From IMG/VR virus record IMGVR_UViG_3300027522_000046, positions 1 to 21,823 of that record: a stretch of 21,823 nt of DNA. One strand, written 5' to 3'. The stretch comes from a virus. Position numbers and translations under genes: made by a program. Positions 1,895-21,040 of the stretch are shown here, piece by piece (the stretch's first letter is position 1; each line of letters begins with the position of its first letter). The notes under the pieces were generated by a model. That model saw only the letters and a program-made list of their open reading frames with translations, was not told the origin of the DNA and did not search any database.

Positions 1895-2539
1895 ATGAAT
1901 TATTTAGTAGCAGTTAACAAAGTTCTACAGCGTTTACGAGAAAGGCCAGTTGAGGCAATCACTGATACTGAGTACAGTCAACTCATTGGTTTATTTATTA
2001 ATGATTCTAAACGTGAAGTAGAAGAAGCGTGGAATTGGTCAGCATTACGAACCACTCTTACTCTTGTTACTTCTGCTGATGTGTTTAACTACGAGTTGAA
2101 TGGAACACAGAATGATATTAATGTTCTAAGTGTTACAAATGCAAGTACTTATTCTTTCCTCACTTACCAAACAGCTCGTTGGTTTGATACTCAATACCTT
2201 TCATCAGCACCTGCTACTGGAGCACCTACTTATTATTCATTCAATGGTGTAAGTACTGATGGTGATACAAAAGTTGACTTGTTCCCTAAACCAGATGGGG
2301 TTTATACAATACGATTTAACGTAGTAGCTCGTACACTAGATCTTGAAACTGATGCTGATAACTTTAATGTTCCTGCAAACCCAGTTGTCATGTTGGCTTA
2401 TGCTAAGGCAGTTGAAGAACGTGGTGAGGATAACGGACAGATGGGTAATACAGCATATATGGTAGCTAATAAAGCATTGAATGATGCTATTCAATTAGAT
2501 GCAAACAAACATCCTGAAGAACTTATTTGGACTAGCTAA
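1895..2539 (+). CDS. Tail tubular protein A-like (gp11-like) head-tail/tail tube protein
   Basis: The 214-residue product starts MNYLVAVNKVLQRLRERPV and continues with a Tyr-Ser-rich line (TDTEYSQLIGLFINDSKREV) and EEAWNWSALRTTLTL. This matches the N-terminal pattern of T7 gp11-type gatekeeper proteins ('AVN.vLrrlgE..V.slt....s.l......a.reve..gW.f'). T7 gp11 has 196 residues, so the length fits. Such proteins form the ring between portal and nozzle in podoviral tails. I chose the ATG at 1895 because this pattern begins there; the frame is open further upstream but that part overlaps the holin-like gene. No Shine-Dalgarno sequence precedes it, and a promoter -10 box lies four bases upstream, which is unusual. 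The stop overlaps the next start as TAATG. Confidence 0.7.
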   Translation: MNYLVAVNKVLQRLRERPVEAITDTEYSQLIGLFINDSKREVEEAWNWSALRTTLTLVTSADVFNYELNGTQNDINVLSVTNASTYSFLTYQTARWFDTQYLSSAPATGAPTYYSFNGVSTDGDTKVDLFPKPDGVYTIRFNVVARTLDLETDADNFNVPANPVVMLAYAKAVEERGEDNGQMGNTAYMVANKALNDAIQLDANKHPEELIWTS

Positions 2540-4077
2540 TGGCACAACTACTCTCAACATCTATAGCAGCCCCAGGATTTTATGGTTTAAATACACAGGA
2601 AAGTAGTATTACTTTAGCCAGTGGTTTTGCCTTACAAGCCACAAACTGTGTAATAGATAAGTCTGGTCGTCTTGGCTCTAGGCAGGGTTGGATAGATCGT
2701 ACAACAGCTAGTACTGTTGTTAACCTTAAAGGAATACATGAGTTTATAAGCAACTCAGGAGTTTCTACTTATATATCATGGGGTGATAACAAGGTCTATA
2801 CAGGCTTGACTACTCTTACAGAAAGAACTCCAGTTTCTAACATTACTATTACTGCTAACAACTGGCAGGGTGTTACGTTAAGTGATCGTGCTTACTTGTT
2901 CCAACGTGGGCATGATCCATTGGTTCAGCAGTCAGGCGGTTCCTTACAAAGAGTAAGAGATCACACAAACGCATCTGGTGTACCCCCTCAAGCAAACTGT
3001 GTCTTGTCTTCTTATGGTAGATTATATGCAGCAGACATTATAGGTGACAACCATACTGTACACTTCTCCGACTTGGTTACTAATAATGGAGGAGGAATTA
3101 AATGGAGTGGAGGTGCTAGTGGTTCTCTAGATATATCAAAGATATGGACTAAGGGTGGAGATTCAATTGTAGCTCTCGGTGCATTTAACGGATTCTTAAT
3201 AATATTCTGTAAGAACTGTATTGTTATTTACGGAGACACTGATTCTAATAACAACTACCTGACCCCATCGACCTTACGTTTAGTAGAAGTAATTGAAGGA
3301 GTGGGCTGCATAGCTCGTGACTCGGTTCAGAACACAGGTACTGATATTCTATTTTTATCTAACTCAGGTGTTCGTTCCTTGAGTAGGGTAATACAAGAGA
3401 AGTCTACTCCAATAGGCGATGTGTCTATTAATGTCCGTGATGAAGTTTCTGAGATTCTTGCTACTGAACCTATTGATAATATTAAAAGTGTTTACTCCCC
3501 TCAACATGCTTTCTACCTTCTTAGTTTCCCTACTAGTCAGGCACTGTACTGCTTTGATATGAGAGGTAAGTTAGAGAACGGAGCTTCTAGAGTTACTAAG
3601 TGGGCAGGGTTAACTCATAAAGGAATGGTTAATACAGCTGATGGTCGTCTATTCTTTGGGCAGACTACAGGCATAGCTGAGTACGATGGCTACCTAGATG
3701 ATGGTGTCCCTTATCGAATGCTCTACTATACTAACTACTTTGACTTTGATCAACCAACAACAACTAAGATATTAAAGACTGTAGGTATTACATTAATTGG
3801 AGGAAGTGGTCAAGCATTCACCATTAAGTCAGGTGTAGATTACGCGGATGAGTACAGATCTTATAATGCTATAGTTAAACAAACGGCTCTATCTGAGTAT
3901 AACACTTCTGAGTATAACATAGGAGAGTTTACAGGTGGTGGCAGTACAGATAAAATTAAACTAGCTCTTGGAGGGAGTGGCTCAGTTATTCAGCTAGGCT
4001 TCGAGACAGAGATAAGTGGAAATGAAGTTTCTATTCAGAAATTTGATTTATATATTAAACAAGGTAGGGTTTCATAA
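2539..4077 (+). CDS. Tail tubular protein B-like (nozzle-like) tail protein
   Basis: The 512-residue product is rich in Gly, Ser, Thr, Asn and beta-prone segments and has no membrane helix. Its N-terminus (APGFYGLNTQES...FALQATNCVIDKSGRLGSRQGW) follows the pattern 'NCv.d..G.l..R.G' seen near the start of podoviral nozzle proteins (T7 gp12-like), which form a beta-propeller tube below the gp11-like ring. It is shorter than T7 gp12 (794 residues). The repeating blocks around residues 180-300 (for example IKSVYSPQHAFYLLSFP) look like propeller blades. It follows the gp11-like gene directly, with a one-base TAATG overlap, which suits a partner in the same tail tube. The assignment rests on gene order plus the N-terminal motif. 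Confidence 0.6.
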   Translation: MAQLLSTSIAAPGFYGLNTQESSITLASGFALQATNCVIDKSGRLGSRQGWIDRTTASTVVNLKGIHEFISNSGVSTYISWGDNKVYTGLTTLTERTPVSNITITANNWQGVTLSDRAYLFQRGHDPLVQQSGGSLQRVRDHTNASGVPPQANCVLSSYGRLYAADIIGDNHTVHFSDLVTNNGGGIKWSGGASGSLDISKIWTKGGDSIVALGAFNGFLIIFCKNCIVIYGDTDSNNNYLTPSTLRLVEVIEGVGCIARDSVQNTGTDILFLSNSGVRSLSRVIQEKSTPIGDVSINVRDEVSEILATEPIDNIKSVYSPQHAFYLLSFPTSQALYCFDMRGKLENGASRVTKWAGLTHKGMVNTADGRLFFGQTTGIAEYDGYLDDGVPYRMLYYTNYFDFDQPTTTKILKTVGITLIGGSGQAFTIKSGVDYADEYRSYNAIVKQTALSEYNTSEYNIGEFTGGGSTDKIKLALGGSGSVIQLGFETEISGNEVSIQKFDLYIKQGRVS

Positions 4078-5657: not shown

Positions 5658-6587
5658 ATGGCTAGTGATGTAATGAGTTTGTTTGGTTTAGATCCAAATA
5701 CAATACAACAGAATAGAACTAACAAGGCAGTGTCGCAAGCATCTGCTATGAATCCCTACTTCGCTGCAGGTGCGGCAGGTGGTGCATTAGTAGGTCAAAG
5801 CGTTAACAACATGTTTGGATTACAGACTCCAGAGATGGCACAGGCTCAGAGTGTGAAAGATGGTATGCAAGGGGCTGATCTTAATACTCCTGAAGGTATG
5901 AGGGGCGCTGCTCAACAACTAATGATGAGTGGTGACTATGCTCAGGCTATGGCTCTACACTCTCGTGCTAATGAGATGGAGGCTGCAGGAACTGAAGCAA
6001 CTAGAAGTACAGAGGATAGGGCTTTAGGTAAGCCTCGTAATGTTATTATTACCCCTGCTTCTTCTAATCCTATAACTGGTACTACTACTCCTGCTGTTAC
6101 ACACAGCATAACTGAGTACCCTGATGGTCGAATAGCTGATGCAACACAAGGCAAGGAATTTAATTCATATGCAGAGTGGATGTCTAGTTTAAGAAAGGGT
6201 CGTAAAACCCCTGCAGGATCGGGAGGAGATAGTACTGTTGCAAATTTAAGTCCAAGTGAGAGTGAGGCAGGTTTAGATCAAAGTGAAATTGAATCGACTG
6301 TTAATGATTTAGAAGAGCAGTTGTTATTTACTAGTGACGAGGGTCTTAAACAGGAAATCCTTAATCAAATAGAGAATGTAAAAGCAGGTGATCCCAAAGG
6401 TGTTGAAATTAAAATAACAAGTTTACTAGCGCAAGCAACCAGTTTGTACAATGAGCTTAGAGCTGGTGGATTAGAGCCTTATGAAATTCAGAATCGTTCT
6501 ATAGAGTTAGGAAAAATTAAAGCTATGTTAGGTACTTTAGGTGCTACCCCTGATGAGATTTCTAAGACTTTAAAAGTAACACCTTAA
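5658..6587 (+). CDS. Internal virion-type protein, medium
   Basis: The 309-residue product has an N-terminal part rich in Ala, Gly and Asn (PYFAAGAAGGALVGQSVNN), a helical hairpin-like section (MRGAAQQLMMSGDYAQAMAL) that reads like a TPR-type repeat, a disordered Ser/Thr/Pro-rich linker (about 110-195) and a charged helical C-terminus. A good ribosome binding site (AGGAG) lies eight bases before ATG. It is preceded by the gp14-like candidate and followed by two larger virion-like proteins. I do not recognise a family beyond a general resemblance to podoviral internal proteins. A role in the ejection apparatus is inferred from order and size. Confidence 0.5.
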   Translation: MASDVMSLFGLDPNTIQQNRTNKAVSQASAMNPYFAAGAAGGALVGQSVNNMFGLQTPEMAQAQSVKDGMQGADLNTPEGMRGAAQQLMMSGDYAQAMALHSRANEMEAAGTEATRSTEDRALGKPRNVIITPASSNPITGTTTPAVTHSITEYPDGRIADATQGKEFNSYAEWMSSLRKGRKTPAGSGGDSTVANLSPSESEAGLDQSEIESTVNDLEEQLLFTSDEGLKQEILNQIENVKAGDPKGVEIKITSLLAQATSLYNELRAGGLEPYEIQNRSIELGKIKAMLGTLGATPDEISKTLKVTP

Positions 6588-6600
6588 CTCTGGAGGTATC

Positions 6601-8457
6601 ATGACTATTTTTTATGAGCACCCTACGTTAGGGACAATGGAGTTTCCTAATGGTACTCCAAGAGAAGTAATGGTCAATAAAGTAGTGGAGAGGGAAGCAG
6701 CGGAAGGTAAGCAATACGGAAACTTTGAAACTTTTGGTGATCAAGCAGGGCGTTCGTTCACTTCAAGTATCCGAGGGATTAAAGATTTTGCAGGAGTGCA
6801 GAAAACTCCTAGACAAGAGAAAGCTGATCAAGTAGCTGAGTATCGTTCTAGGATACAGATGGAACAGAACCCAGTATCTTCTGTTCTTGGTATGCTTGGC
6901 GGTGGTATTCTTGATCCTATTACTATACCTGCGTTTGCTCTCAAGCCTCTTACATTCGCTTCTAAGGTAGGTACATATGCTTCTAGGGGCGCTGCCCAAG
7001 GATTCTTTGGAGGCGCTCTAGAGCCAGTGTATGAGCAGTATGGAGACTCCACTGTAGCTAATATGTTTGCAGGTACTGTGTTAGGAAGTGGCTTAGGTGC
7101 TGGTATTGGTAAGCTTTTAACCAAGTCTACAGACAAGGTAGCTAAAGCAGTAGATGAAGTAGACTCAAGTGCTCCTGTAAAGACAGAGTCAGTAAATATA
7201 GAGCAAATATTTAATGCTCCTGTGCGTACTGTTGAACAGTCTAATGCTAAGATACTGAAAGAACTAGAGTTAGAAGCTAAGGGTGCTCCTTCTAAAGAAG
7301 ACGTAGCTACTCTTAACCAAACTTTAAAGCTTGAGAAAGATAAGTCGTTTAAGCTAGGTAATATTCTTGCAAAACTTCAGGGATCTGGTTCTAAACCAAC
7401 TCTAGGTAATCGTAATGCTTCTAGGGTTATGGAAGCTAGGGCCGTTGAGTCTAATGCTAAGATTAAAAAGTTAGAGCTTGATCTAGCTTCAGCTACTACT
7501 TTAAGAAAAGCAGTTACTAATCTTGAGAATGCAAAGCTAGGTAAATTCAGTAAGATAGAAGGGTATGCTGATAGGCTGAAACAATCTTCTGTTCCACTAC
7601 CTCGTACTCCTATAGCACAAGCTGTGCAAGGACAACCACCTGCCCCTCCTTCTATACTTAGCAGCAAACCTTCTCTAGCTAGGAAGCTAGGCTTAGGACT
7701 TGACACTCCTAGATTCTTAGATAGGAATGATACAGCAGGTGCTCAAAGAGTTAACCAAGATCCATTTGTCCGTCAACAGTTTATGCCTCGTAGTAAAGAA
7801 GACAGTACTCGTAGGGTAGTTCAAGGTAAGGTTAGTGGGGATAATAAGGAAACAATAGTACCTATCAAACTATCTTCCTCTTCTAAAGAAGCTATTGATA
7901 ATGTAAATCGTAAGGTGAATAAAGGAGAAGAGATTACTCCTGATGATTTTGATAAGTATGACAAGGCTAAGAGAGAGCAGACTACCCTTGATGAGTACTC
8001 TGATACTGTGGCTCAGATTGCACGTAGTCGTGGGTTGGATACTTATGCGGCTAGGTTCGGTTCATCAGGAAGGTATACATTTGAGAACATTGAAAAGAGT
8101 GCTAGTAAATTCTTAAAGGACGAGGACATTGATAACCTTGATGACATGGTTAGGTATATATTAGCCAACCCTGAGAAGATATTCAATGCCGCTGAGTTGA
8201 CAGGTATGAGAGATTTATTATCTGAAGTAGATCAGAAGTTACTAGATTTTAGTATGCTTACTAAACACACTGATGGTATGTCAGACGCTGAGATAGCTCT
8301 ACTGCATAATGATATTGATGTGTTCTATGGTATACAGGCATGGTTCAAAGGACAAGGAAGTAAAGTTGCTGGTGTAATGACAGCTCGTAAAAAATTGCAG
8401 CAAGATATAGCGAACAATCGTGAGATTAAGCAGTTGTTTGCAGGAGTGGAATGTTAA
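6601..8457 (+). CDS. Large internal virion / ejection-type protein, first of two
   Basis: The 618-residue product begins MTIFYEHPTLGTMEFPNGTP, a short N-terminal module also found in other large phage virion proteins. At about residues 95-175 lie Gly/Ala-rich membrane-active helices (VSSVLGMLGGGILDPITIPA, GTVLGSGLGAGIGKLL). After these come long Lys/Glu/Leu coiled-coil stretches (about 190-340), a Pro-rich linker (about 345-365) and another charged helical part. This mixture of amphipathic, membrane-prone and coiled-coil segments is typical of podoviral ejection proteins that build a channel across the periplasm. GGAGG lies four bases before ATG. The end overlaps the next gene by seven bases. 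With its neighbour it totals 1339 residues, close to the 1318 of T7 gp16. I see no lytic transglycosylase motif. Confidence 0.55.
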   Translation: MTIFYEHPTLGTMEFPNGTPREVMVNKVVEREAAEGKQYGNFETFGDQAGRSFTSSIRGIKDFAGVQKTPRQEKADQVAEYRSRIQMEQNPVSSVLGMLGGGILDPITIPAFALKPLTFASKVGTYASRGAAQGFFGGALEPVYEQYGDSTVANMFAGTVLGSGLGAGIGKLLTKSTDKVAKAVDEVDSSAPVKTESVNIEQIFNAPVRTVEQSNAKILKELELEAKGAPSKEDVATLNQTLKLEKDKSFKLGNILAKLQGSGSKPTLGNRNASRVMEARAVESNAKIKKLELDLASATTLRKAVTNLENAKLGKFSKIEGYADRLKQSSVPLPRTPIAQAVQGQPPAPPSILSSKPSLARKLGLGLDTPRFLDRNDTAGAQRVNQDPFVRQQFMPRSKEDSTRRVVQGKVSGDNKETIVPIKLSSSSKEAIDNVNRKVNKGEEITPDDFDKYDKAKREQTTLDEYSDTVAQIARSRGLDTYAARFGSSGRYTFENIEKSASKFLKDEDIDNLDDMVRYILANPEKIFNAAELTGMRDLLSEVDQKLLDFSMLTKHTDGMSDAEIALLHNDIDVFYGIQAWFKGQGSKVAGVMTARKKLQQDIANNREIKQLFAGVEC

Positions 8458-10673: not shown

Positions 10674-10820
10674 CTATAACAAACTCTTCTGCCCTTCCTC
10701 TAAGTACCAATCAAACTCTATGTGACAATCCACACATGCTTTCTTATTGATACTTGTGAAGGTGAGTAGGTCTTTGTTCCCACATTGAGGACACTCTTTG
10801 GTAGTTACTTTCTCACTCAT
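10674..10820 (-). CDS. Small zinc-ribbon protein
   Basis: The 48-residue product has two CxxC pairs (CPQCG at residues 10-14 and CVDC at 29-32) joined by a short beta-prone segment (DLLTFTSINKKA), a classical zinc ribbon. An acidic/aromatic tail follows (HIEFDWYLEEGQKSLL). Very similar mini-proteins ('CPkCGs...stFtSin.kaC.dCg..w.W.L.eGq.pl') are, as I recall, common among T7-like marine phages beside DUF3310. Function is unknown; DNA, RNA or protein binding are all possible. GGAG lies five bases before ATG. The start overlaps the stop of the DUF3310 gene by eight bases. It is the last gene of the replication operon. Confidence 0.8.
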   Translation of the reverse strand: MSEKVTTKECPQCGNKDLLTFTSINKKACVDCHIEFDWYLEEGQKSLL

Positions 10821-11151
10821 GATTCTCCATCCAATCTTCTATCATCATATCGATACAGTGCTTTGCCTTAGCTAAGTCCTGTAATGGTGTACCCTTATCT
10901 TGATAACGAGTTACGTACTTAATAGCTGTATGCTGTAGTGCATTCAACTCATTAGCCATAGAGTATTCCATAGGCTGTATCTTAAGCTTAGAGTAGTGGT
11001 CACCTCCTACCTGAGTAGCTTTAGCAGAACCTAGGAATGGTTCATGTTCATCAGGTGTATTGGCCTCCCCTTGTGAGAAGATATTCCTTGACCATATTTC
11101 GTCTTCGTTTATGTACTGGGGGTTTATGAAGGTGGGTTCAACCTTATTCAT
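10813..11151 (-). CDS. DUF3310 protein (T7 gp1.7-like, nucleotide-kinase-related)
   Basis: The 112-residue product has a variable N-terminal half (1-45) and a C-terminal DUF3310 domain: VGGDHYSKLKIQPMEY, then HTAIKYVTRYQDKG, then DLAKAKHCIDMMIE. The signature 'GGdHY.....qPie......l....g.aiKYv.Ry..Kg...DL.KA..yl' is diagnostic. In T7 the domain occurs in gp1.7, reported as a nucleotide kinase acting on dGMP/dTMP, so a role in phage nucleotide supply is possible, although many DUF3310 proteins are shorter and untested. It sits in the replication operon between two very small genes and overlaps both by eight bases. AGAGGAT precedes the start. Confidence 0.85.
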   Translation of the reverse strand: MNKVEPTFINPQYINEDEIWSRNIFSQGEANTPDEHEPFLGSAKATQVGGDHYSKLKIQPMEYSMANELNALQHTAIKYVTRYQDKGTPLQDLAKAKHCIDMMIEDWMENHE

Positions 11152-11314
11152 AACTTCTATCCTCTAACTGTTCTTCTAGTTCTGAGAACTTATTAATAAT
11201 AATATCCTCATTCCTATTCACTAAGGTTGCACTGTCAAGCTGTAACAACTCAATGAGCATGACTTCATCCAACGCTTGTAAATGTACTTTCAACTCTTCG
11301 AGTGTCATTGGCAT
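11144..11314 (-). CDS. Small acidic protein overlapping the phosphoesterase gene
   Basis: The 56-residue product (MPMTLEELKVHLQALDEVMLIELLQL..., ending EDRSYE) is acidic and helical. The pattern 'MTLEeLkehL..lDEvtLlElLdi.se.lv.rf.d.ie.....l' is familiar to me from short genes of marine podoviruses, with no known role. AAGGA lies six bases before the ATG at 11314; an in-frame ATG at 11308 is an alternative. The first 50 bases lie inside the end of the phosphoesterase gene in another frame, and the stop overlaps the DUF3310 start by eight bases. Both overlaps and the ribosome binding site argue that it is translated. Confidence 0.75.
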   Translation of the reverse strand: MPMTLEELKVHLQALDEVMLIELLQLDSATLVNRNEDIIINKFSELEEQLEDRSYE

Positions 11315-12062
11315 ATCGTTTCCTTAAATAGTTCATACTAACTGGCATCTCGTCAAAGCTTCCATCCTTTACATCATTCATTACCCACAGTCCACGCCAT
11401 GATCCATTGGTCTGAGGTGTCAAGTACTCTTCATCGTGTTGGTAGTAGATACCAGCAAAGAGTCCTGTCATATTCAAACCATCAGCCCTACGTGCATAGG
11501 CTATGTCCCTGTCTTGAACATGCCCCATCACACAGCTCATGTGCTTCTTAGTGAGTAGCATCTTAGCAGAGGATACTGGTCTACCCATGACACCTGATGT
11601 AAAGTAATGGCAGTACGCTACACCATCAACAACAATGGGGTCTAAGAACTGCTTAACTTCCCAGCCTTGCAGGTTGAAATCATCGTAGCTAATTAACCCA
11701 TCAAGTTTAGGATCATTCTCAGTGGCTCTGTTGATTCGGTTCTCATGGTTACCCATTAAGAATATCATTCTAGGATTCCACTGCTTCTTCTTGTTACGAG
11801 TGAGCCGCCATTGCTCCTGCAGGATAGGCTTCATGAGAGCAGCCATAGCCTCATTACCAGACTCTACGTCCTTAGTGTACCGCCTACCTTCAAAGCTCTT
11901 CTTACCTACATCATAGGAGCTTAGGGAGGACATATCCCAGTGATCCCCTAAGTGTATAATAACATCAGGCTTAGTGTCAGCAGCAAACTTACCTGCCCAC
12001 TCTAAGTGATCATAACTTGTGTCGGGTTTGACCTGCGTATCAGGTATGATTAAATGTTTCAT
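11265..12062 (-). CDS. Calcineurin-like metallophosphoesterase
   Basis: The 265-residue product has the ordered metal-binding motifs of this superfamily: D8 in IIPDTQ, GDHWD (D40 and D43), GNHE (residues 104-107) and GH at 180-181, with H152 in CHYF as a further candidate ligand. Enzymes of the family hydrolyse phosphodiester or phosphomonoester bonds with two metal ions. Phage members include nucleases and protein phosphatases, so the substrate is open; position in a replication operon favours a nucleic-acid substrate. The start overlaps the HNH gene stop by ATGA, so translation is probably coupled. The last 50 bases are shared with the following small gene. Length is normal for phage members. 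Confidence 0.85.
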   Translation of the reverse strand: MKHLIIPDTQVKPDTSYDHLEWAGKFAADTKPDVIIHLGDHWDMSSLSSYDVGKKSFEGRRYTKDVESGNEAMAALMKPILQEQWRLTRNKKKQWNPRMIFLMGNHENRINRATENDPKLDGLISYDDFNLQGWEVKQFLDPIVVDGVAYCHYFTSGVMGRPVSSAKMLLTKKHMSCVMGHVQDRDIAYARRADGLNMTGLFAGIYYQHDEEYLTPQTNGSWRGLWVMNDVKDGSFDEMPVSMNYLRKRYANDTRRVESTFTSVG

Positions 12063-12460
12063 TTAGTATTCCTTCTAGTTAAGGTTCTAACTTCACGTTC
12101 ATCACGAGTCTTAATGCCATGACATACCCAGCACAAGACTTGATAACCATCTTCTTCTAGGAACATACGGTTTATGTATGTGTCCCAATCTACAAAGCCC
12201 ACTGCTGGGTCAACAACAGGATCGATGTGATCCACTGCAGCGTTGTTTCTCCTACGACCTTTTCCAACAGGTGGAAGAGTAGCAGGGCCAATGACCCCAC
12301 AGCAAGCACAAAGATAGCGCCCTGTAGAAACTCTAGCAGATTTCTTAACATCAGTCTTCACTCCCCACTTACCATGTGCTCCACGTAAAGCGGAGGTTAT
12401 GAAGGACTTATGTCTAGCTTCTGTCCAGCGTCCGTTGTTACGGGTCTTGGTGGTTGCCAT
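12059..12460 (-). CDS. HNH endonuclease
   Basis: The 133-residue product begins with a basic helical part (TEARHKSFITSALR) that I recall as constant in a family of T7-like phage HNH proteins. A first zinc site follows (CACC at 51-54), then the catalytic VDHIDPVVDP (D77, H78) and a second zinc site CWVCH (110-114). The order C-C / DH / C-C-H is that of zinc-stabilised HNH nucleases. It lies between the exonuclease and phosphoesterase genes, a place where such genes are stable in these phages, so a role in host DNA degradation, recombination or packaging is more likely than homing. The first 64 bases are inside the exonuclease gene in another frame. The start is kept because the N-terminal motif is family-like. 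Confidence 0.85.
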   Translation of the reverse strand: MATTKTRNNGRWTEARHKSFITSALRGAHGKWGVKTDVKKSARVSTGRYLCACCGVIGPATLPPVGKGRRRNNAAVDHIDPVVDPAVGFVDWDTYINRMFLEEDGYQVLCWVCHGIKTRDEREVRTLTRRNTK

Positions 12461-13128
12461 AGTTCATCATCCTGTCTACGTAAGTATAAGAGAATCCCAT
12501 TCTCAATGGCTCTCTCTTCACTACCTAGTTTATCAACACATATATTATACATTTCAAGCTCAGTCTTACCAGCCAGTAACTTACCAGCTTTAACAGGGCC
12601 AATGCCAGCAACACCTATGATGTTGTCAACCTTGTCACCTTCTAAGAATTGCTTATAGAAATTAAGTAAGCCTTCTTCTTCCGTAATATAATATTTAATC
12701 TTCTTAACAAAGTTATAATGCCAGCCTTTAAACTGGTCAAAGTCTTTATCTAAAGATATGGCGATAGCTTTATCACCTTCCTGTGTTGCACGTATTGCTA
12801 TCCTATCATCTGTCTCTTCACCACTAGTCACAATAGCACCGAGTTCTTCTACAAAGAAATCCCTCAGTGCTTGGAGGTGTATAGGCTTTTCCATACCATC
12901 ACGATTACCTTTGTAGGGTACAGTGACAGCGTGATCATTCCTAAAGTTACCTTTGCCTGTAATGTAATACTCAACTGTATGAGTAGCATCATCTGAATCC
13001 ATTACTAGATCCTCAATGATAGTATTCACATAGTTGAGCAGTGTCTTACAAGCGACCTGTTGTGACTCGTTGTTGCAAGCGAAACCTATGCGATAGCAAA
13101 AGATGTCTGCATCAACGAGTAAGATCAT
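12397..13128 (-). CDS. 5'-3' exonuclease (T7 gp6 / FEN-like)
   Basis: The 243-residue product has the acidic active-site set of the FEN superfamily: D6 and D8 in LLVDAD, EETDD (104-108), LDKDFD (126-131), and D165/D168 in GDKVDNI. It also has the helix-hairpin-like DNA-binding segment GVAGIGPVKAGKLL (172-185). A basic arch region with YKGNR lies at about 72-76. Such enzymes remove RNA primers and degrade host DNA 5' to 3'. The length is close to but shorter than T7 gp6 (300 residues). The ATG overlaps the SSB gene stop by ATGA, and the 3' end is shared for 64 bases with the HNH gene. All key residues are present, so I expect an active enzyme. Confidence 0.92.
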   Translation of the reverse strand: MILLVDADIFCYRIGFACNNESQQVACKTLLNYVNTIIEDLVMDSDDATHTVEYYITGKGNFRNDHAVTVPYKGNRDGMEKPIHLQALRDFFVEELGAIVTSGEETDDRIAIRATQEGDKAIAISLDKDFDQFKGWHYNFVKKIKYYITEEEGLLNFYKQFLEGDKVDNIIGVAGIGPVKAGKLLAGKTELEMYNICVDKLGSEERAIENGILLYLRRQDDELWQPPRPVTTDAGQKLDISPS

Positions 13129-13532
13129 AGCTCTGGAATATCCTCAAAGCTAGTAGCAGCAGACTCGTAACGAACCAAGTCATTCACTCGTGCTTTGGAT
13201 ATGCCTAAGCTAACACCTGTCTTACCTTTAAAGTTGTAGTCAAAAGGTTTAACAATGAAGGTACACTTAGATCCATTACCTACAGATTCAGTCATCTTGA
13301 AACCCATATCATCCTCTACATGAGGTGGATACTTAGACGACTTAGCTGTGACAAAGTAACCTCGGTCATCACCTTTGTTCTTAACTGATACACCCATACC
13401 TTCTAGGCGATCAACTTGTTCTTCTGATAGTTCACTAAGATCTACCTGATACTTGTCTGACATTTCATTCTTCTCTAGGAATGAGAACCAGAAAGCAGTG
13501 GCTTCGATTTTAAGTGGGTTATGATTTTGCAT
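13125..13532 (-). CDS. Single-stranded DNA-binding protein (T7 gp2.5-like)
   Basis: The 135-residue product starts MQNHNPLKIEATAFWFSFLE and continues with KYQVDLSELSEEQVDRLEGMGV, a GNGSKCTFIVKPFDYNFKGKTG segment (86-106, here split by me at the domain core) and an acidic end (SFEDIPEL). The order of these blocks matches short gp2.5-like OB-fold proteins of marine T7-like phages. The acidic tail would contact the polymerase and helicase, as in T7. It is shorter than T7 gp2.5 (232 residues), with a reduced loop region. AAAGGA lies seven bases before ATG. The gene lies between polymerase and exonuclease, as expected for a replisome partner. Confidence 0.85.
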   Translation of the reverse strand: MQNHNPLKIEATAFWFSFLEKNEMSDKYQVDLSELSEEQVDRLEGMGVSVKNKGDDRGYFVTAKSSKYPPHVEDDMGFKMTESVGNGSKCTFIVKPFDYNFKGKTGVSLGISKARVNDLVRYESAATSFEDIPEL

Positions 13533-13578: not shown

Positions 13579-15267
13579 CTAGTGTGTGTGCGCCCAAGTT
13601 GGCCCTACGTTGTAGTCACCATCCAATGGACAATTCATTTCAAAGTGCAGCCCAGCATCAACGATGGCCTGTACTCCTAACTTACCTACCAAGTCTGCAT
13701 CTTCTGCTGAAGATTCGATCTGCCATTCGTCATGGACGTTAGCTACAAACTTGTACCACACTCCACTATCATCAAGAGATTTCTTGAGAATAACTAGAGC
13801 TTGCTTCATCACTATTGCGCCAGCAGATTGTAAGAGAAAATTTAAAGCACTGTGCTCTGACTCTACTCTTAACCTACGTCCGTCCAGCCCTCGTAGTGTA
13901 CCACGTTTACGCATACTCTGCAATACGATCTCTTTCAACCGAGCATACGCAGGTAGGTTCTTCATAAACTTATCAACCAGTTGCTTACCCTTACGAGCAG
14001 AGCCACCAGCTATCTCTCCAATCTTAGCGAAACCTCCACCATAAATCAGGGCATATATGAAAGTCTTCGATTGATCACGAGTAGCTAGCCCAGCCATGTG
14101 TTGATTATACGTATGTATATCCCCTTCAAGTAGTTGCTTGATGTAGGCTTTATCATTCATGTAATGGGCAAGCATCCTCAACTCCAAACCAGAAGCATCG
14201 ATGCCAGTTAATAAGTTCCCTTCCTCTACAATCCAACAGGCTCTACAGTCTGTACTATAGGTTGAACCTGCACCAAATAGTAACTCACCTGTCTTCTTGT
14301 CCTTCTTAGCTGATGGTACTTGGGCCATGTTAGGATTATTATGAGTCATACGTCCAGAGACAGCTCCATTAGTAATCACTCCACCATGTACACGACCATC
14401 ACTACCAACTGCATTTACCCAGCTATCGATCTGACTAACTCTTTTCTGTAAGGTTAGATATTCTAGTATCAACTTAGCTTCAGGTAAATCTATTCCTGCC
14501 AAGGTCTTCTCATTAACAATGATGTTACCCTTGTCAGTTTGACTACTGAATACTACTCCTTTGCCTTGGAGTCTTTCAGCGATTTGCTTACGGCTTCCGA
14601 GGTTGAAGACTGTGACTTTATCTTTAAGCCGCTTACCTGTCTTTTCCGAGACTCGCTCCTCCACCAAGGGTGGGAAGACTGCTTGGACTGCTCGTTCGAT
14701 TTCATTCATTCTCCCCATAAGATCACTTAACAATTGGTTTGCTCTCACAGTGTCTAACTTAAATCCATTAGACTGCTGCTCTGCAATTATGATTGCTACT
14801 TCATGCTCTAGCTTAATACATTCCTCTGAGAATCCATCCTCTAGTAGTAGGCTGGTGAGGTGAGGCTCAAGCAGATGGGTTATCTCAACATCCATCTTGC
14901 AGTAGGTACGCATCTCCTCTGTTAGACCACCATCATAATCATCGAACTTAATCTTAGGGTATCCCAACCTGTCACCCCAAGCTGATAATGAATGACCACC
15001 TTCTAATCGTGGACACCATAGACGAGATAGCAACACTGTATCTCTCAGCTTGTGGTTAGGGATCTGCACCTGCCATAGTTTATCTATCTTAGGTGCATCA
15101 AACCCTGTGATGTTATGTCCTATTACGTGGCTTGTATGGCGAAGGTGTTGCTCTAACTGCATTGGGTTCACTAGTAACCTCTGCTTTACCTCGCCCTCTC
15201 TTTGGATTCCACAACACCAGATATGATCCTGCTTCCATGTTGTCTCTATATCTAGCGTTAGCTTCAT
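13579..15267 (-). CDS. Family-A DNA polymerase with proofreading exonuclease (T7 gp5-like)
   Basis: The 562-residue product has the 3'-5' exonuclease motifs LDIETT (D6, E8), HNITGFD (D57) and YCKMD (Y122, D126). The polymerase motifs are A (DASGLELRMLAHY from D357), B (RDQSKTFIYALIYGG, with R397, K401 and Y405) and C (VHDEW, H512-D513-E514). All catalytic residues are present, so both activities are expected. The position matching Escherichia coli Pol I F762 and T7 Y526 is Y405, as in T7. It is shorter than T7 gp5 (704 residues), so insertions such as the thioredoxin-binding loop are probably reduced or absent. I chose this start because GAGGTG lies seven bases upstream and the first exonuclease motif begins at residue 5. 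The 5' part overlaps another reading frame. Confidence 0.96.
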   Translation of the reverse strand: MKLTLDIETTWKQDHIWCCGIQREGEVKQRLLVNPMQLEQHLRHTSHVIGHNITGFDAPKIDKLWQVQIPNHKLRDTVLLSRLWCPRLEGGHSLSAWGDRLGYPKIKFDDYDGGLTEEMRTYCKMDVEITHLLEPHLTSLLLEDGFSEECIKLEHEVAIIIAEQQSNGFKLDTVRANQLLSDLMGRMNEIERAVQAVFPPLVEERVSEKTGKRLKDKVTVFNLGSRKQIAERLQGKGVVFSSQTDKGNIIVNEKTLAGIDLPEAKLILEYLTLQKRVSQIDSWVNAVGSDGRVHGGVITNGAVSGRMTHNNPNMAQVPSAKKDKKTGELLFGAGSTYSTDCRACWIVEEGNLLTGIDASGLELRMLAHYMNDKAYIKQLLEGDIHTYNQHMAGLATRDQSKTFIYALIYGGGFAKIGEIAGGSARKGKQLVDKFMKNLPAYARLKEIVLQSMRKRGTLRGLDGRRLRVESEHSALNFLLQSAGAIVMKQALVILKKSLDDSGVWYKFVANVHDEWQIESSAEDADLVGKLGVQAIVDAGLHFEMNCPLDGDYNVGPTWAHTH

Positions 15268-15310: not shown

Positions 15311-15619
15311 TCACCTCCATCCCTTACGTTTTGCATAGGCCATGTAACTCACTCCATGTTCTTCAATAGCTTTATATACTGCATCCATTGAAGTGGCACG
15401 ATTCCATTTCCTATTAGCTTTGTTCCGTAAGCACCAGCTCCAAGTTAATGTATTGATGAAGAAGTAGTTTCCTTTATGATGAAAGCATATCTTACCATTA
15501 TCATAAGGCATAGGGTTCCTCTTACCTTTTAGTTTAAGATAAGCCATAGCCTCCTCAAAGTTAACTAGGTCAATCTCCTCAGGATTGGTAATTCTATAAG
15601 TGTTTATCTGTTTACTCAT
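15311..15619 (-). CDS. Hypothetical protein in the replication operon
   Basis: The 102-residue product is basic and aromatic, with SWCLRNKANRKWNRATSMDA and AIEEHGVSYMAYAKRKGW near the C-terminus and a mixed N-terminal half. I see no known motif, signal peptide or membrane segment. The ATG overlaps the primase-helicase stop by ATGA, and AGGAG lies nine bases before it. The overlap with a replication gene and its position between helicase and polymerase suggest a DNA-replication accessory role, but no function can be given. Confidence 0.75.
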   Translation of the reverse strand: MSKQINTYRITNPEEIDLVNFEEAMAYLKLKGKRNPMPYDNGKICFHHKGNYFFINTLTWSWCLRNKANRKWNRATSMDAVYKAIEEHGVSYMAYAKRKGWR

Positions 15620-17214
15620 AACTCTTTCTCCTCTTCCTTCTCAAGCATACGACCAGTAGAGTGGCTGTATGCCAGCTCATTAGCCTTACCTGTGAGGCCA
15701 CAGAATCGGTTCTTAAGTACACGTACATGAGTAGTGTTCCTAGTCTCTTCATCCTCTGCTTGTCCATTACGTTCAAGACCTAGTACCATATCACTAAGCT
15801 GTGCGATAGAGCCAGAGCCACGTAGCTGTGACAAGCTAGACGCTGCACCTTCCTCATGACCTTTACCATCAGGACGCTTGAGGTGAGATACAATGAACAG
15901 TGCAATTCCTGTCTCCTGTACTAGCATACGAAGCCTAGTCATGATCTCGTCTAATGCTTTACGTTCATCGCCACTAGCCTGTGCTGACACCACAATGGAT
16001 ACGTGATCCAATACTACATACTTACATCCTAATCCTTTAGCCATGTAACGTACACGAGCTACAATATTATCAACACCAGTAGAACCGAAGTGGTCGAATA
16101 AGAATATACGATCAGTGCCTAACGTGGCATCGAATGCATCCTTCCTCTCCTCGTCTGTAGCTATAGTGTCAGGTAGATGTAATGGTTTGTTAGCAGCAAG
16201 GGACATTAAAGATAGAGCAGCTTTCTTAATACTCTCTTCAAGGAATAATATTCCTATGTTATCTTCTGTCTTACTGATGATCTGCCATATAATCTCACGC
16301 ATGAACTGACTCTTACCTAGTCCAGATCCAGCGGTAACTGTAACCAACTCACCAAATCTAATTCCATACGTAAGTTTATTGAGTCCATCGAAAGGATAGA
16401 GGCAGTCTGCTGGGGCGATAGGCTTGTTAACCTCTTCCCATAGTGAAGCTCCTGCAATAATTCCATCTGGGACAAAGCGTTCTGAGTTCCACCATCGGTC
16501 AATGAACTCTTTTGTACGTCCAAACTTAAGGTAATCGTTTGCATCCTTCTCGTCCTTAGTGTGCTTATATACCTTAGTCTTACCACCAAACAACTCAGCC
16601 ACTTGGTTAGCAGCCTTGACTCCCACCTCATCTGAGTCGAAGCATACCACTATGGTATCGAAGCTATCTAGGTACTCGTATGAGGCTCGACAATCTTTCA
16701 ATGCACCAGAGCTGCCATTCTTAATAGATACTACAGGGTACTTACTACCTAGCATCTGGTAGGCAGACAGAGCGTCATACTCACCTTCAGTTACAGTAAT
16801 GTACTTACCGCCTTTAGGGAACAAGTTCTGTCCGAACAGTACTGTGTCCGACCAAGCACCTGATGTAAAGAACTCCTTCTCTGGAGTCCGAGTCTTAGCT
16901 CCCACTAAGAAACCATCCTTATCATGGTATCCGAAGATCATACGTTCGCCATGTAACTGGGCCTTGTATGTCTTACAGGTATCGCTTGATATGCCACGAG
17001 CAACTACACTCTTATATGGCTTGGTGTTTAAGTCTTCTTTAGTTCTATCGAAATTTCCTGAGGAAACTTTAGTACTAGGTACATCCATATCTATCTCCTT
17101 ACCTCTAGTTCGTTTATCACAGGCGAAGCAGTTGCTCCACCCTTTATCATCAATGCTCAGTGCGTCACTGCTCCCGCAGTCGTCACAAGGCAAGTGTGTT
17201 TTGACGAAGCCCAT
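15616..17214 (-). CDS. DNA primase-helicase (T7 gp4-like)
   Basis: From the ATG at 17214 the product has 532 residues (five fewer than the longest possible frame; the numbers here are for that longer, 537-residue frame). It has an N-terminal zinc site (CDDC at 15-18 and CFAC at 34-37) for template recognition, a TOPRIM-type primase core (TEGEYDALS at 147-155 and FDSDEVG at 197-203), and a C-terminal RecA-like helicase: Walker A GSGLGKS (301-307), LEES (330-333), Walker B YVVLDHV (404-410), SHLKRP and LRGSGSIAQLSD. All match T7 gp4 in order and spacing, so it should unwind DNA as a hexamer and make primers. GAGGA lies eight bases before the ATG at 17214, which is why I chose it. The 5' end overlaps the preceding small gene by 32 bases. 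Confidence 0.95.
   Translation of the reverse strand: MGFVKTHLPCDDCGSSDALSIDDKGWSNCFACDKRTRGKEIDMDVPSTKVSSGNFDRTKEDLNTKPYKSVVARGISSDTCKTYKAQLHGERMIFGYHDKDGFLVGAKTRTPEKEFFTSGAWSDTVLFGQNLFPKGGKYITVTEGEYDALSAYQMLGSKYPVVSIKNGSSGALKDCRASYEYLDSFDTIVVCFDSDEVGVKAANQVAELFGGKTKVYKHTKDEKDANDYLKFGRTKEFIDRWWNSERFVPDGIIAGASLWEEVNKPIAPADCLYPFDGLNKLTYGIRFGELVTVTAGSGLGKSQFMREIIWQIISKTEDNIGILFLEESIKKAALSLMSLAANKPLHLPDTIATDEERKDAFDATLGTDRIFLFDHFGSTGVDNIVARVRYMAKGLGCKYVVLDHVSIVVSAQASGDERKALDEIMTRLRMLVQETGIALFIVSHLKRPDGKGHEEGAASSLSQLRGSGSIAQLSDMVLGLERNGQAEDEETRNTTHVRVLKNRFCGLTGKANELAYSHSTGRMLEKEEEKEL
17054..17066. repeat. Dispersed palindrome, copy 3 (inside primase-helicase)
   Basis: The + strand reads TTTCCTGAGGAAA; on the coding strand the longer form is AAAGTTTCCTCAGGAAATTT. 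The sequence encodes part of the linker between the zinc site and the primase core (residues KVSSGNF), where codon constraints are weak. The loop differs from other copies, but the arms are conserved. Confidence 0.7.
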
Positions 17215-17389
17215 TATTAAAATCCTCATATTCGTGGTCAGTCATAAAGTGACACATTACTTCATCAAGGGCCATGAGTGTACCCCAATCTGAACTGTCA
17301 CCACTATCTTTTAATATACTCATGTAGTAACTTTTAAGGCAACTAACTGTAATTGCATTAGCATCTTCTATCCCCACTTCAATCTTCAT
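17183..17389 (-). CDS. Small acidic conserved phage protein
   Basis: The 68-residue product (MKIEVGIEDANAITVSCLKSY..., with MTDHEYEDFN near the end) is acidic and helical. The pattern 'MkIei..e.ad.I....Lk............d.......l..a...i..y+...e.e.f' is familiar to me from small genes next to primases in T7-like marine phages; there is no known role. I chose the ATG at 17389 because AGGAGG lies five bases upstream; a longer frame needs a GTG at 17410. It overlaps the membrane-protein gene by 11 bases and the primase gene by 32. Confidence 0.7.
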   Translation of the reverse strand: MKIEVGIEDANAITVSCLKSYYMSILKDSGDSSDWGTLMALDEVMCHFMTDHEYEDFNNGLRQNTLAL

Positions 17390-19368: not shown

Positions 19369-19557
19369 TTATTTCCCCTTGATTCCAAATTGCCTAAAGC
19401 TGTAGCCATCACGCTTACCTGCCTTGATTAAATACTCGGTGTCCTCACTTTCAGAACATCCCTTCAATTCTTTAATCATTATGTCTTCATATGCTAGGGA
19501 GTTACCTAGTCTTAGAAACTTACGTGCTCGTTTTACTGTTGAATCTAATGTGTTCAT
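19369..19557 (-). CDS. Small basic hypothetical protein
   Basis: The 62-residue product (MNTLDSTVKRARKFLRLGNS...) is basic, with an amphipathic N-terminal helix and Lys/Arg-rich C-terminus (KAGKRDGYSFRQFGIKGK). GGAGAG precedes the ATG by six bases. The start overlaps the previous stop by ATGA. There is no known motif; binding to nucleic acid is possible. Confidence 0.6.
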   Translation of the reverse strand: MNTLDSTVKRARKFLRLGNSLAYEDIMIKELKGCSESEDTEYLIKAGKRDGYSFRQFGIKGK

Positions 19558-19787
19558 GCTTTCTCTCCTTCACTATGCTTATATACAGACCACCATTGCT
19601 CGTCACTGAGTAGTTCAAGGTACTCAAGAGACTCAATCCACCCACTCTTTTCCTCAAGGATGTCAAAGTACTCACTATTCACTAAAATAGTCTTCTGATC
19701 TCCGTAATAGTCTAAAGCCCTAGTAACAATAGCCTTAGCTTCAGGCGACATTGCATCTAATTCATCCATCAAGTCTTGATATTTCAT
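19554..19787 (-). CDS. Small acidic hypothetical protein
   Basis: The 77-residue product (MKYQDLMDELDAMSPEAKAI...) is acidic, with several aromatic residues in the C-terminal half (EYFDILEEKSGWIESLEYLE, then DEQWWSVYK). GGAGG lies eight bases before ATG, and the ATG overlaps the stop of the GP88-like gene as TAATG. There is no recognisable domain. Confidence 0.65.
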   Translation of the reverse strand: MKYQDLMDELDAMSPEAKAIVTRALDYYGDQKTILVNSEYFDILEEKSGWIESLEYLELLSDEQWWSVYKHSEGEKA

Positions 19788-20428
19788 TATAAAACCTCCA
19801 ATAGTGCAATCATTTTCATTCCTTTCTTACCATGCATAGGGTAAGCTACAACTTTTGTGTCCTTATCCCAACAATCTCTACATTCCCCACACTTCCCACC
19901 TCTTGAGTAGGCGTGGCATATGGTAGCAGTAGTTGGAGTATCTACATAGGGTAGAATAGTAGATGAATTAGCCCCATCAATAAGCTCGCCTGTGATGCTA
20001 TCGCTACTATACCTAACGACAACATTGCGTAGTGATTCCATTTCATTAAACACCCCTCTAAATTTAATAAACTTGTGCATACGTGTGGGTAGCCAATGCT
20101 TGGTTAGAGGCGTACGAGACATAACCTCTAGTATCTTGATAGCTAGTCGTTTATCGTAAACGTCACCACTATCGAACCACCTAAAGAATTTACTCTTTGT
20201 TAGTAGCCCTACCATTTCATCCACCCACCCATCACGATGCCAATCTTCTTTATTATGCACCCGCAGATCTTTAACTACAGGCATATTATAAAACCCTGTC
20301 GTTGCATAGCAACCTTGACACGCTGGCACTAACTCACCATCATCCTGCAAACTTGCTGGACAGGTTGTCAACGCTTCCAAACTCCATGAATTACATGGCA
20401 TCTTACTTGGCTTGCTTAACTTGATCAT
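19787..20428 (-). CDS. Cysteine-rich GP88-like protein (possible Fe-S enzyme)
   Basis: The 213-residue product starts with a cysteine-rich part: C12, C23, C37 and C40 (SKMPCNSW, TTCPAS and ACQGCYATTGFY). FRWFDSGDVYDKRLA (82-96) and HWLPTR (111-116) follow. A C-terminal cluster contains C171, C180, C183 and C186 (KCGECRDCW). The order 'CP.......C.gCYa..g.y' plus 'FRw..sGD..d...........P...fw..TR' is what I recall of the phage 'gene product 88' family, which is unrelated in name to a known reaction but has radical-SAM-like features. Two Fe-S clusters are plausible from the spacing. It is the largest gene of the early array. GAGAGG precedes the start. The stop overlaps the next start by TAATG. 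The family match and chemistry need a profile search. Confidence 0.65.
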   Translation of the reverse strand: MIKLSKPSKMPCNSWSLEALTTCPASLQDDGELVPACQGCYATTGFYNMPVVKDLRVHNKEDWHRDGWVDEMVGLLTKSKFFRWFDSGDVYDKRLAIKILEVMSRTPLTKHWLPTRMHKFIKFRGVFNEMESLRNVVVRYSSDSITGELIDGANSSTILPYVDTPTTATICHAYSRGGKCGECRDCWDKDTKVVAYPMHGKKGMKMIALLEVL

Positions 20429-20468
20429 GATACTACCTCTCTAAGCTCCTGTAAGGCTGTCTAACGAG

Positions 20469-20525: not shown

Positions 20526-20867
20526 TTACACGATCACAACTACTTCTTCAATAATCTTAATAGAATTGCACAAGTATACATTGCCTCGTGCATGATTCTT
20601 CTTCTCGTATGCTCGACACTCAACTAACACAATGGTCTTGTCAAGTGGATCATCAAAGTTCTCCATATATTTTAGAGCGTCAGCCAAGGAGGGTAGAACG
20701 TGAATACCAGAGTAATAGTATTTACCGCCACTACCATCACGAACATGTTTAACGTCAGCATACAACCACTCCTTCTCTTTAACTTGCTTCGATCCATCAA
20801 TAGCATGAAACAAAGTGCTCCACCATCCATCATTTTTACCATACTTCATAATTTTATAAGCAATCAT
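20526..20867 (-). CDS. Hypothetical protein of the small-gene array
   Basis: The 113-residue product starts MIAYKIMKYGKNDGWWSTLF and has GKYYYSGIHVLPSLADALKY in the centre, followed by a hydrophobic beta-rich end (NSIKIIEEVVVIV). The pattern 'sGiHvlpsl.dAl.Y.......kvv.vec' resembles small phage proteins in which a 'GlHv...eeAl.y' segment is followed by a beta hairpin. This is only a weak resemblance. I chose the ATG at 20867, nine bases after GGAG; a longer frame would need TTG. It lies two bases past the previous stop. Confidence 0.65.
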   Translation of the reverse strand: MIAYKIMKYGKNDGWWSTLFHAIDGSKQVKEKEWLYADVKHVRDGSGGKYYYSGIHVLPSLADALKYMENFDDPLDKTIVLVECRAYEKKNHARGNVYLCNSIKIIEEVVVIV

Positions 20868-20869
20868 TA

Positions 20870-21040
20870 TTATGCACTCCAAAAAACTTTATTAAGGCCA
20901 TATTGCTTGGCAATTACTGGTAGTAGTGGACTCACTGATAACTCAGCTTCATCGTTGTAACTTCGATTAGTATTCTGTGATACTACAGTCAATAAAACGT
21001 AGCCCTCAGCGTCTACAATGTAATAGGTGTGCTTAGTCAT
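20870..21040 (-). CDS. 56-residue hypothetical protein
   Basis: The product (MTKHTYYIVDAEGYVLLTVV..., ending QYGLNKVFWSA) has a beta-prone first third and a short helix at the end. The start overlaps the stop of the upstream gene as TAATG, and its stop lies two bases before the next start, so the spacing fits the rest of the array. GAGGG lies about eight bases before the ATG. There is no known motif, and short length limits certainty. Confidence 0.6.
   Translation of the reverse strand: MTKHTYYIVDAEGYVLLTVVSQNTNRSYNDEAELSVSPLLPVIAKQYGLNKVFWSA

Follow-up and report, generated by a model that had tools for sequence, protein, structure and literature searches.

A GP88-family gene upstream of the replication genes

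The window analysed here is the whole of virus record IMGVR_UViG_3300027522_000046, 21,823 bases in length. Positions 19787..20428 of its minus strand carry an open reading frame of 213 amino acids, with the ATG at 20428-20426 and the stop codon at 19789-19787, and its product matches the Pfam family GP88 (PF17338) with an E value of 7.6e-28, scoring 98.4 bits where 24.4 is the cut-off. A first-pass annotation of the sequence had called a GP88-like protein at these positions; the family and the coordinates both hold, and the strand, which it left unstated, is minus. Over the same interval, frame 1 of the plus strand contains many stops, and the ORF list has no plus-strand ORF of at least 60 amino acids inside it. 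A likely ribosome-binding site recognised by eye (20436..20444, minus strand) has its AGAGG core 7 bases ahead of the ATG. Downstream, an ORF of 77 amino acids (19554..19787, minus) shares one base with the stop codon of GP88 (TAATG) and has no match among PHROGs or in Pfam. Upstream, a 118-amino-acid ORF (20526-20882, minus) has relatives upstream of GP88 in four other loci and matches DUF7666 very weakly, with 15.3 bits against 27.

GP88 lies 5' of the primase-helicase (15616-17229) and DNA polymerase (13579-15267) genes, on the same minus strand, amid short ORFs that belong to no known family and gave no Pfam or PHROG match of note. Genes for a Gp2.5-like protein (13125-13532) and an exonuclease (12397-13128) follow on this strand, and those for a calcineurin-like phosphoesterase (11265-12062) and a DUF3310 protein (10813-11151) close the replication block. 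The genes of the plus strand include those for virion proteins.

Family membership and distribution

All 75 rows of the GP88 alignment (A2) match PF17338 at E up to 1, and the conserved features of the family (three plus four cysteines, the DxGD motif and the W..T motif) are all present in the window protein. The protein also exceeds the cut-off for DUF7227 (PF23872) by 0.3 bits (27.3 against 27), and 51 of the 75 rows match DUF7227 at E up to 1, so the two models overlap. GP88 is widespread among bacterial viruses, yet it has no function in Pfam or in PHROGs, where phrog_1392 is the matching family. With the window protein as query, 17 places were found in viral contigs, while the alignment query gave at least 600 stretches in viral contigs (599 of the 600 listed were confirmed and 80 were kept) and 77 in genome contigs, of which 33 were confirmed. 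Queries with divergent members added 165 places (80 kept), 122 (80 kept) and 40. Mycobacteriophage D29 gene 88 was matched by a GP88 query, and the actinophage type matched 372 of 50,697 phage records. The family was rejected as a plasmid gene after tblastn with two members (L116 and L025) found no match in 72,556 plasmids. Searches with GP88 of PDB sequences and of NCBIfam gave nothing useful.

In the open-licence literature we found no paper on PF17338, none that treats DUF5131 together with radical SAM, and none relevant by title for DUF5131, Gp37Gp68, Gene product 88 or DUF7227. Neither the reading of GP88 as radical-SAM-like nor its link to DUF5131, both described below, was seen among the open-licence papers listed. 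The gp88 of PMC8066314, a paper that combines GP88 with radical SAM, is an unrelated protein as described in the available part of that paper. In the accessible sections of PMC11797047 and PMC2884959, nothing said of their gp88 proteins points to the PF17338 family. In the parts available, the main text of PMC7474061 does not use the name gp88, its genes going by other names, and PMC12172466 does not mention gp88.

The gene had been assigned to an early array on first reading, and its position in the window and in several reference phages agrees with this. GP88 occupies positions 1-663 of 40.8 kb in Roseobacter phage CRP-4 and 2.9-3.6 of 97 kb in Acinetobacter phage AM24, is the last gene of Roseobacter phage CRP-125, and lies at 49.7-50.4 of 52.2 kb in Mycobacterium phage Anthony and at 46,764-47,474 of 49,127 in D29. 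Streptomyces phage Daubenski has two copies, one near each end, and in other Streptomyces phage loci (such as L256/L257 and L258/L259) each genome likewise has a copy of GP88 close to either end, a layout that suggests terminal repeats. The gene is not terminal in Caulobacter phage Seuss, Pelagibacter phage HTVC027P and several environmental contigs. RNA-seq of D29, in the part of the report available, shows the right-arm genes as a group, and not gene 88 specifically, to be well expressed at 15 min from near Pleft, and in L5 Pleft is at the right end ahead of gene 89 (PMC5712189). In the available text on phage Kampy, high coverage is described upstream of its gene 88, which shares the number without implying a GP88 identity (PMC4626039). 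Such an early position suggests a role in host take-over or counter-defence rather than in virion assembly.

We compared the flanks of 337 loci, which pool the search places with seven reference-phage loci and are not all independent, since one Streptomyces phage, for instance, contributes both of its ends. Flanking proteins vary by lineage and no partner recurs across lineages, so the idea of a conserved operon partner was dropped. On the opposite strand, the neighbour is small-terminase-like by eye in 47 loci of the CX13 type and VRR-NUC-like by eye in 92 loci. Of 81 actinophage-type loci, 67 have a DUF932 gene on the strand of GP88, as do three other loci; in L256-L335, which are of the actinophage type, the block of GP88 often also holds DUF932 and Api92-like (DUF1281_C) genes. 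None of the neighbouring or co-occurring genes that we looked for hints at the substrate of GP88.

Two conserved sets of cysteines

The 213-residue translation contains cysteines at positions 12, 23, 37, 40, 171, 180, 183 and 186, and seven of these eight form two conserved sets. The first is a triad, C23-x13-C37-x2-C40, followed by Y41 and A42 (20309..20362, minus strand), which we propose as a SAM-binding [4Fe-4S] loop after strand 1. The second is a tetrad, C171-x8-C180-x2-C183-x2-C186 (19871..19918, minus), proposed as a second metal site between strands 5 and 6. The first-pass annotation had described two clusters of four; C171/C180/C183/C186 and C23/C37/C40 are borne out by conservation, while C12, Cys in only 35 of the 75 rows, was dropped as a metal ligand, leaving three cysteines in the first set. 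The SGD and WLPTR motifs that it named between them are present in the translation, the former at 87-89 within D86-S87-G88-D89 (FRWFDSGD; 20162..20173, minus) and the latter at 112-116 (20081..20095, minus), where it ends strand 3.

C37, C40 and all four tetrad cysteines are kept in 75 of 75 rows, as are nine further residues (R83, W84, D86, G88, D89, W112, R139, S141 and R184). The C23 column holds Cys in 50 of 75 rows; we think that this loop is misaligned there, because, sought as a pattern, C-x13..17-C-x2-CYA occurs in 251 of the 337 loci and a second spacing, C-x4..9-C-x3-CYA, in 81, so that 332 loci have one of the two. The five with neither are three truncated by the ends of contigs (L016, L017 and L128), one with a 12-residue gap (L095) and one divergent member (L138). 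The tetrad pattern C-x7..30-C-x2-C-x2-C is absent from 7 of 338 ORF hits: four truncated at contig ends (L230, L372, L373 and L374), a degenerate second fragment (L137), a sequence with four cysteines and a long insert (L107), and again L138. The window type combines CX13CX2C with CX8CX2CX2C, and the actinophage type CX6CX3C with CX16CX2CX2C. Three N-terminal and four C-terminal cysteines are therefore conserved across divergent phage lineages. In the Cellvibrionales MAG locus L107:5241-8705, the GP88 frame is open for about 900 codons upstream; the upstream sequence looks Hpt/chemotaxis-like by eye, and the long frame appears to be a fusion or an assembly chimera.

Predicted fold and structural neighbours

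An AlphaFold2 model made from the 75 sequences has a pLDDT of 94.3 and a pTM of 0.90. Its N-terminal half consists of a strand (13-15), the triad loop, two helices (50-62 and 68-76), a strand (81-84), the DSGD motif and a helix (93-105). The C-terminal half continues with a strand (110-115), a helix (121-131), two strands (136-141, bearing R139 and S141, and 155-159), the tetrad loop, a further strand (193-197) and a helix (201-212). Triad and tetrad thus occupy two separate loops of a confidently predicted model. The order of the predicted strands is that of radical-SAM proteins, with the triad after strand 1 and the tetrad between strands 5 and 6, and we read the modelled fold as a short radical-SAM barrel.

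Structural neighbours were ranked with VIA-align, run on Foldseek's 1000 best PDB chains; the tool warns that values below Z 8 may reflect common arrangements. Ranks 1 to 14 are all radical-SAM enzymes, with 13 chains reaching Z 5 and none Z 8. The top row is QueE (Z 6.5, rmsd 6.1, 153 residues aligned), and the viperin-like 9dgw also has Z 6.5 (rmsd 4.5, 152 aligned). Lysine aminomutase, EpeE, SkfB, BtrN, ChlB and 7bi7 are also among these ranks; 7bi7 we take to be NifB, and the families of some other chains are likewise presumed. A second model, of the 37%-identical member L116 (pLDDT 95.7, pTM 0.92), has radical-SAM chains in ranks 1 to 5 (Z 5.4-5.7) and in 10 of its 14 highest rows; RsbS and glycosidase folds are interspersed with them at Z 5.0-5.3. 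Foldseek against the PDB at E 0.001 gave no match for either model, and no radical-SAM chain was among the first 50 for L116. Against viral models, the first ten Foldseek matches included GP88 proteins, a DUF7227 protein, a Gp37/Gp68-like protein (E 5.9e-5) and unnamed entries.

Profile links to DUF5131 and radical-SAM proteins

Comparison of the GP88 profile with a DUF5131 profile gave P 59.4 with 9 sequences and P 83.8 (E 7.9e-6) with 31. The score of 45.8 compares with 26.2 for the highest of 40 column shuffles and with 17.8 for the reversed profile. C37-C40 and WLPTR are in register in both alignments; DSGD is aligned (on MSD) in the weaker comparison only and gapped out in the stronger. 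Among the 75 GP88 rows, 19 match DUF5131 at E up to 1 (best 0.0034), and with a purpose-built DUF5131 model 26 of 338 GP88 ORFs match at E up to 10, the best of them at 2.2e-4. The window protein itself is not matched by the curated DUF5131 model (PF07505). In the reverse direction, one of five scanned DUF5131 proteins matches PF17338, below the cut-off at 2.1e-4, and the other four do not match it.

The second link runs from DUF5131 to canonical radical-SAM proteins. L172, a PF04055 protein (3.8e-16) that had been found through a DUF5131 search, matches DUF5131 at 2.2e-5, which is below the cut-off. The DUF5131 profile against 15 radical-SAM sequences related to L172 gave P 96.2 and E 2.5e-9, with a score of 69.9 against 22.2 when shuffled. 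The sole NCBIfam model to match the DUF5131 protein L139 was 'radical SAM mobile pair protein A', at 7.2e-27 and with 94.3 bits, short of the cut-off of 355. Compared directly, GP88 and the radical-SAM profile match weakly (P 2.5, E 0.019; 23.0 against a best of 17.8 in 40 shuffles). By profile comparison, then, GP88 is a remote relative of DUF5131, which is itself a relative of canonical radical-SAM proteins.

Several hallmarks of the superfamily were looked for and not found. PF04055 does not match the window GP88 at E up to 10, and across 40 GP88-bearing records its three hits all fall on genes other than GP88. In record G130 (locus L086 at 5.4-8.1 kb), a 155-kb viral contig, GP88 and a PF04055 radical-SAM gene (1.2e-13) are separated by about 1.5 kb. 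The canonical CX3CX2C motif is absent, GP88 having CX13CX2C in its stead. Radical-SAM folds have a GGEP-type motif after strand 2; this too is absent, and DSGD stands in what we take to be that place. We do not file GP88 as a radical-SAM member because CX3CX2C, PF04055 and GGEP were all sought without success. Variant cluster motifs have been accepted for QueE, HmdB, PhnJ and ThiC, and QueE has CX14CX2C and a beta6/alpha3 core, as stated in the part of PMC4389238 available. The first-pass suggestion of a radical-SAM-like enzyme therefore gains from the strand order, the structural neighbours and the chain from GP88 through DUF5131 to radical SAM, and loses by the three absences. GP88 is supported, at a distance and through DUF5131, as radical-SAM-like and not as a proven member of the superfamily.

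Proposed activity and the nature of the second metal site

We consider it fairly likely that the early block codes, in GP88, for a radical-SAM-like enzyme of a minimal and non-canonical kind. In this scheme C23, C37 and C40 would hold a [4Fe-4S] cluster whose one open iron binds S-adenosylmethionine, the stretched CX13CX2C taking the part that CX14CX2C plays in QueE. Reduction of the cluster would come from a host flavodoxin or ferredoxin, and SAM would be cleaved to the 5'-deoxyadenosyl radical. A SAM-binding [4Fe-4S] cluster at the triad, with radical chemistry, is probable on this evidence. The target is more of a guess: a nucleotide or nucleic acid base, from either the host or the phage, is tentatively put first, and a host protein, the next choice, seems rather unlikely. 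The only pointer to a nucleic-acid target is L380, one of the 15 radical-SAM sequences above, with a weak match to spore photoproduct lyase (1.7e-4).

The C-terminal tetrad would form a second metal site that shapes the active site or binds substrate. Auxiliary Fe-S clusters are common in radical-SAM enzymes, and the C-terminal Cys motif of QueC is a zinc site. The latter motif, C-x7..14-C-x2-C-x2-C, is present in 18 of 18 QueC rows (loci L403-L419 and L423), and the GP88 tetrad scores slightly above shuffles against QueC, both as a whole (22.5 against a best shuffle of 19.2) and in the C-terminal part (19.9 against 15.4). A sub-threshold QueC match (5.4e-4) also falls on the GP88 frame of record G149. 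Since the tetrad resembles the QueC motif, it may hold zinc and not Fe-S, and full confidence in a second Fe-S cluster was given up. An Fe-S cluster here has close to an even chance, and zinc is a plausible second candidate.

The strongest alternative is that GP88 is a barrel-derived protein with structural zinc or Fe-S sites that has lost the use of SAM and acts by binding, for example by inhibiting a host nucleic-acid or transcription protein. The QueC-like tetrad, the missing PF04055 match and CX3CX2C motif, the low structural Z values and the lack of a conserved enzyme partner in the flanks of the 337 loci would all fit such a protein. However, the invariant R83, D86, D89, R139, S141 and R184 lie in or beside the strands and Cys loops in an active-site-like arrangement, and the profile link to DUF5131 and thence to radical-SAM enzymes also counts against it; we hold this alternative to be unlikely. 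Placing GP88 beside radical-SAM enzymes opens a 'function unknown' family to testing: it indicates the chemistry to assay and the cysteines to mutate, and D29 in M. smegmatis offers a tractable phage for the work.

Relation to the DUF5131/TcmP pair

A different reading starts from the neighbours of DUF5131. TcmP-like ORFs adjoin DUF5131 in 19 of 37 loci (L139-L175), nine of which supplied the model used to find them, and none of the 337 GP88 loci has one. All five tested DUF5131 proteins match the PADLOC models PDC-M30B and PDC-M41B with E below 1e-38, and all six tested TcmP-like neighbours match PDC-M30A or M41A; three of three tested neighbours match NCBIfam TcmP. We take the PDC-M30 and PDC-M41 names to denote phage-defence candidates, which goes beyond the library's own description. 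A phage early gene is in this way tied to a family listed in a defence catalogue as half of a candidate pair.

On this reading, DUF5131 with TcmP, a candidate anti-phage pair, would form the cellular side of a clan and GP88 its phage side; the early GP88 product, lacking TcmP and bearing an added second metal site, would chemically modify or reverse the same target, or serve as a decoy or counter-defence against that system. Besides the PADLOC matches and the contrast in TcmP neighbours, three observations fit. DUF5131 (2421-3458) and GP88 (5968-6678) are same-strand genes of a 75.6-kb viral contig (L355) with about 2.5 kb between them, GP88 is followed by ArdC in MW202796, and the S. meliloti TcmP gene SMa2243 has a locus tag next but one to that of the Hna phage-defence gene SMa2245, according to the available part of PMC12445080. 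In PMC12429752, as far as the accessible text goes, TcmP appears only within a prophage gene table. Against this reading, PADLOC models searched up to E 1 gave no match for the window protein (P0001), and the defence role of the pair is itself only a candidate one. PADLOC also gave nothing useful for L116 and merely 0.055 for L025. We regard this reading as improbable; if true, it would mean a radical-SAM-based counter-defence or host take-over enzyme in hundreds of phages, from those of Pelagibacter to those of Mycobacterium and Streptomyces.

A QueE-like or other 7-deazaguanine-related enzyme that modifies DNA or tRNA is very improbable, for although QueE heads the structural ranking (tied within 1 Z with viperin), and has a similar motif (CX14CX2C, in the portion of PMC4389238 available), and although the GP88 tetrad resembles that of QueC, QueC is above cut-off in 1 of the 40 GP88-bearing records, many of which may be partial and whose hosts may supply the pathway. 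In that one record (G149, locus L365), a viral contig of 70 kb, QueC stands next to a separate PF04055 gene, with GP88 about 7 kb away, and GP88 was not retained as a QueE stand-in.

Comparison with known systems

The radical-SAM-like reading of GP88 can be set beside four known groups. DUF5131 (PF07505; Gp37/Gp68) is similar in size and resembles GP88 from C-x2-CYA through the strand-4 region, with WLPTR falling on VLTKR. It differs in having mostly CX6CX2C, a consensus without the C-terminal tetrad, a C-terminal half marked by GGESG...FFFKQWGG and often a TcmP neighbour. Proteins of the PA0069/Rv2578c type (PF04055) align with GP88, in a weak direct comparison, at C-x2-CYA and at a D-x-Y after strand 2, but they have CX3CX2C, a PF04055 match and a longer core. 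QueC aligns with GP88 over about 23 residues, barely above shuffles, and outside this stretch no relation to QueC was seen. QueE shares with GP88 the stretched motif and the short core, whereas the tetrad is GP88's own.
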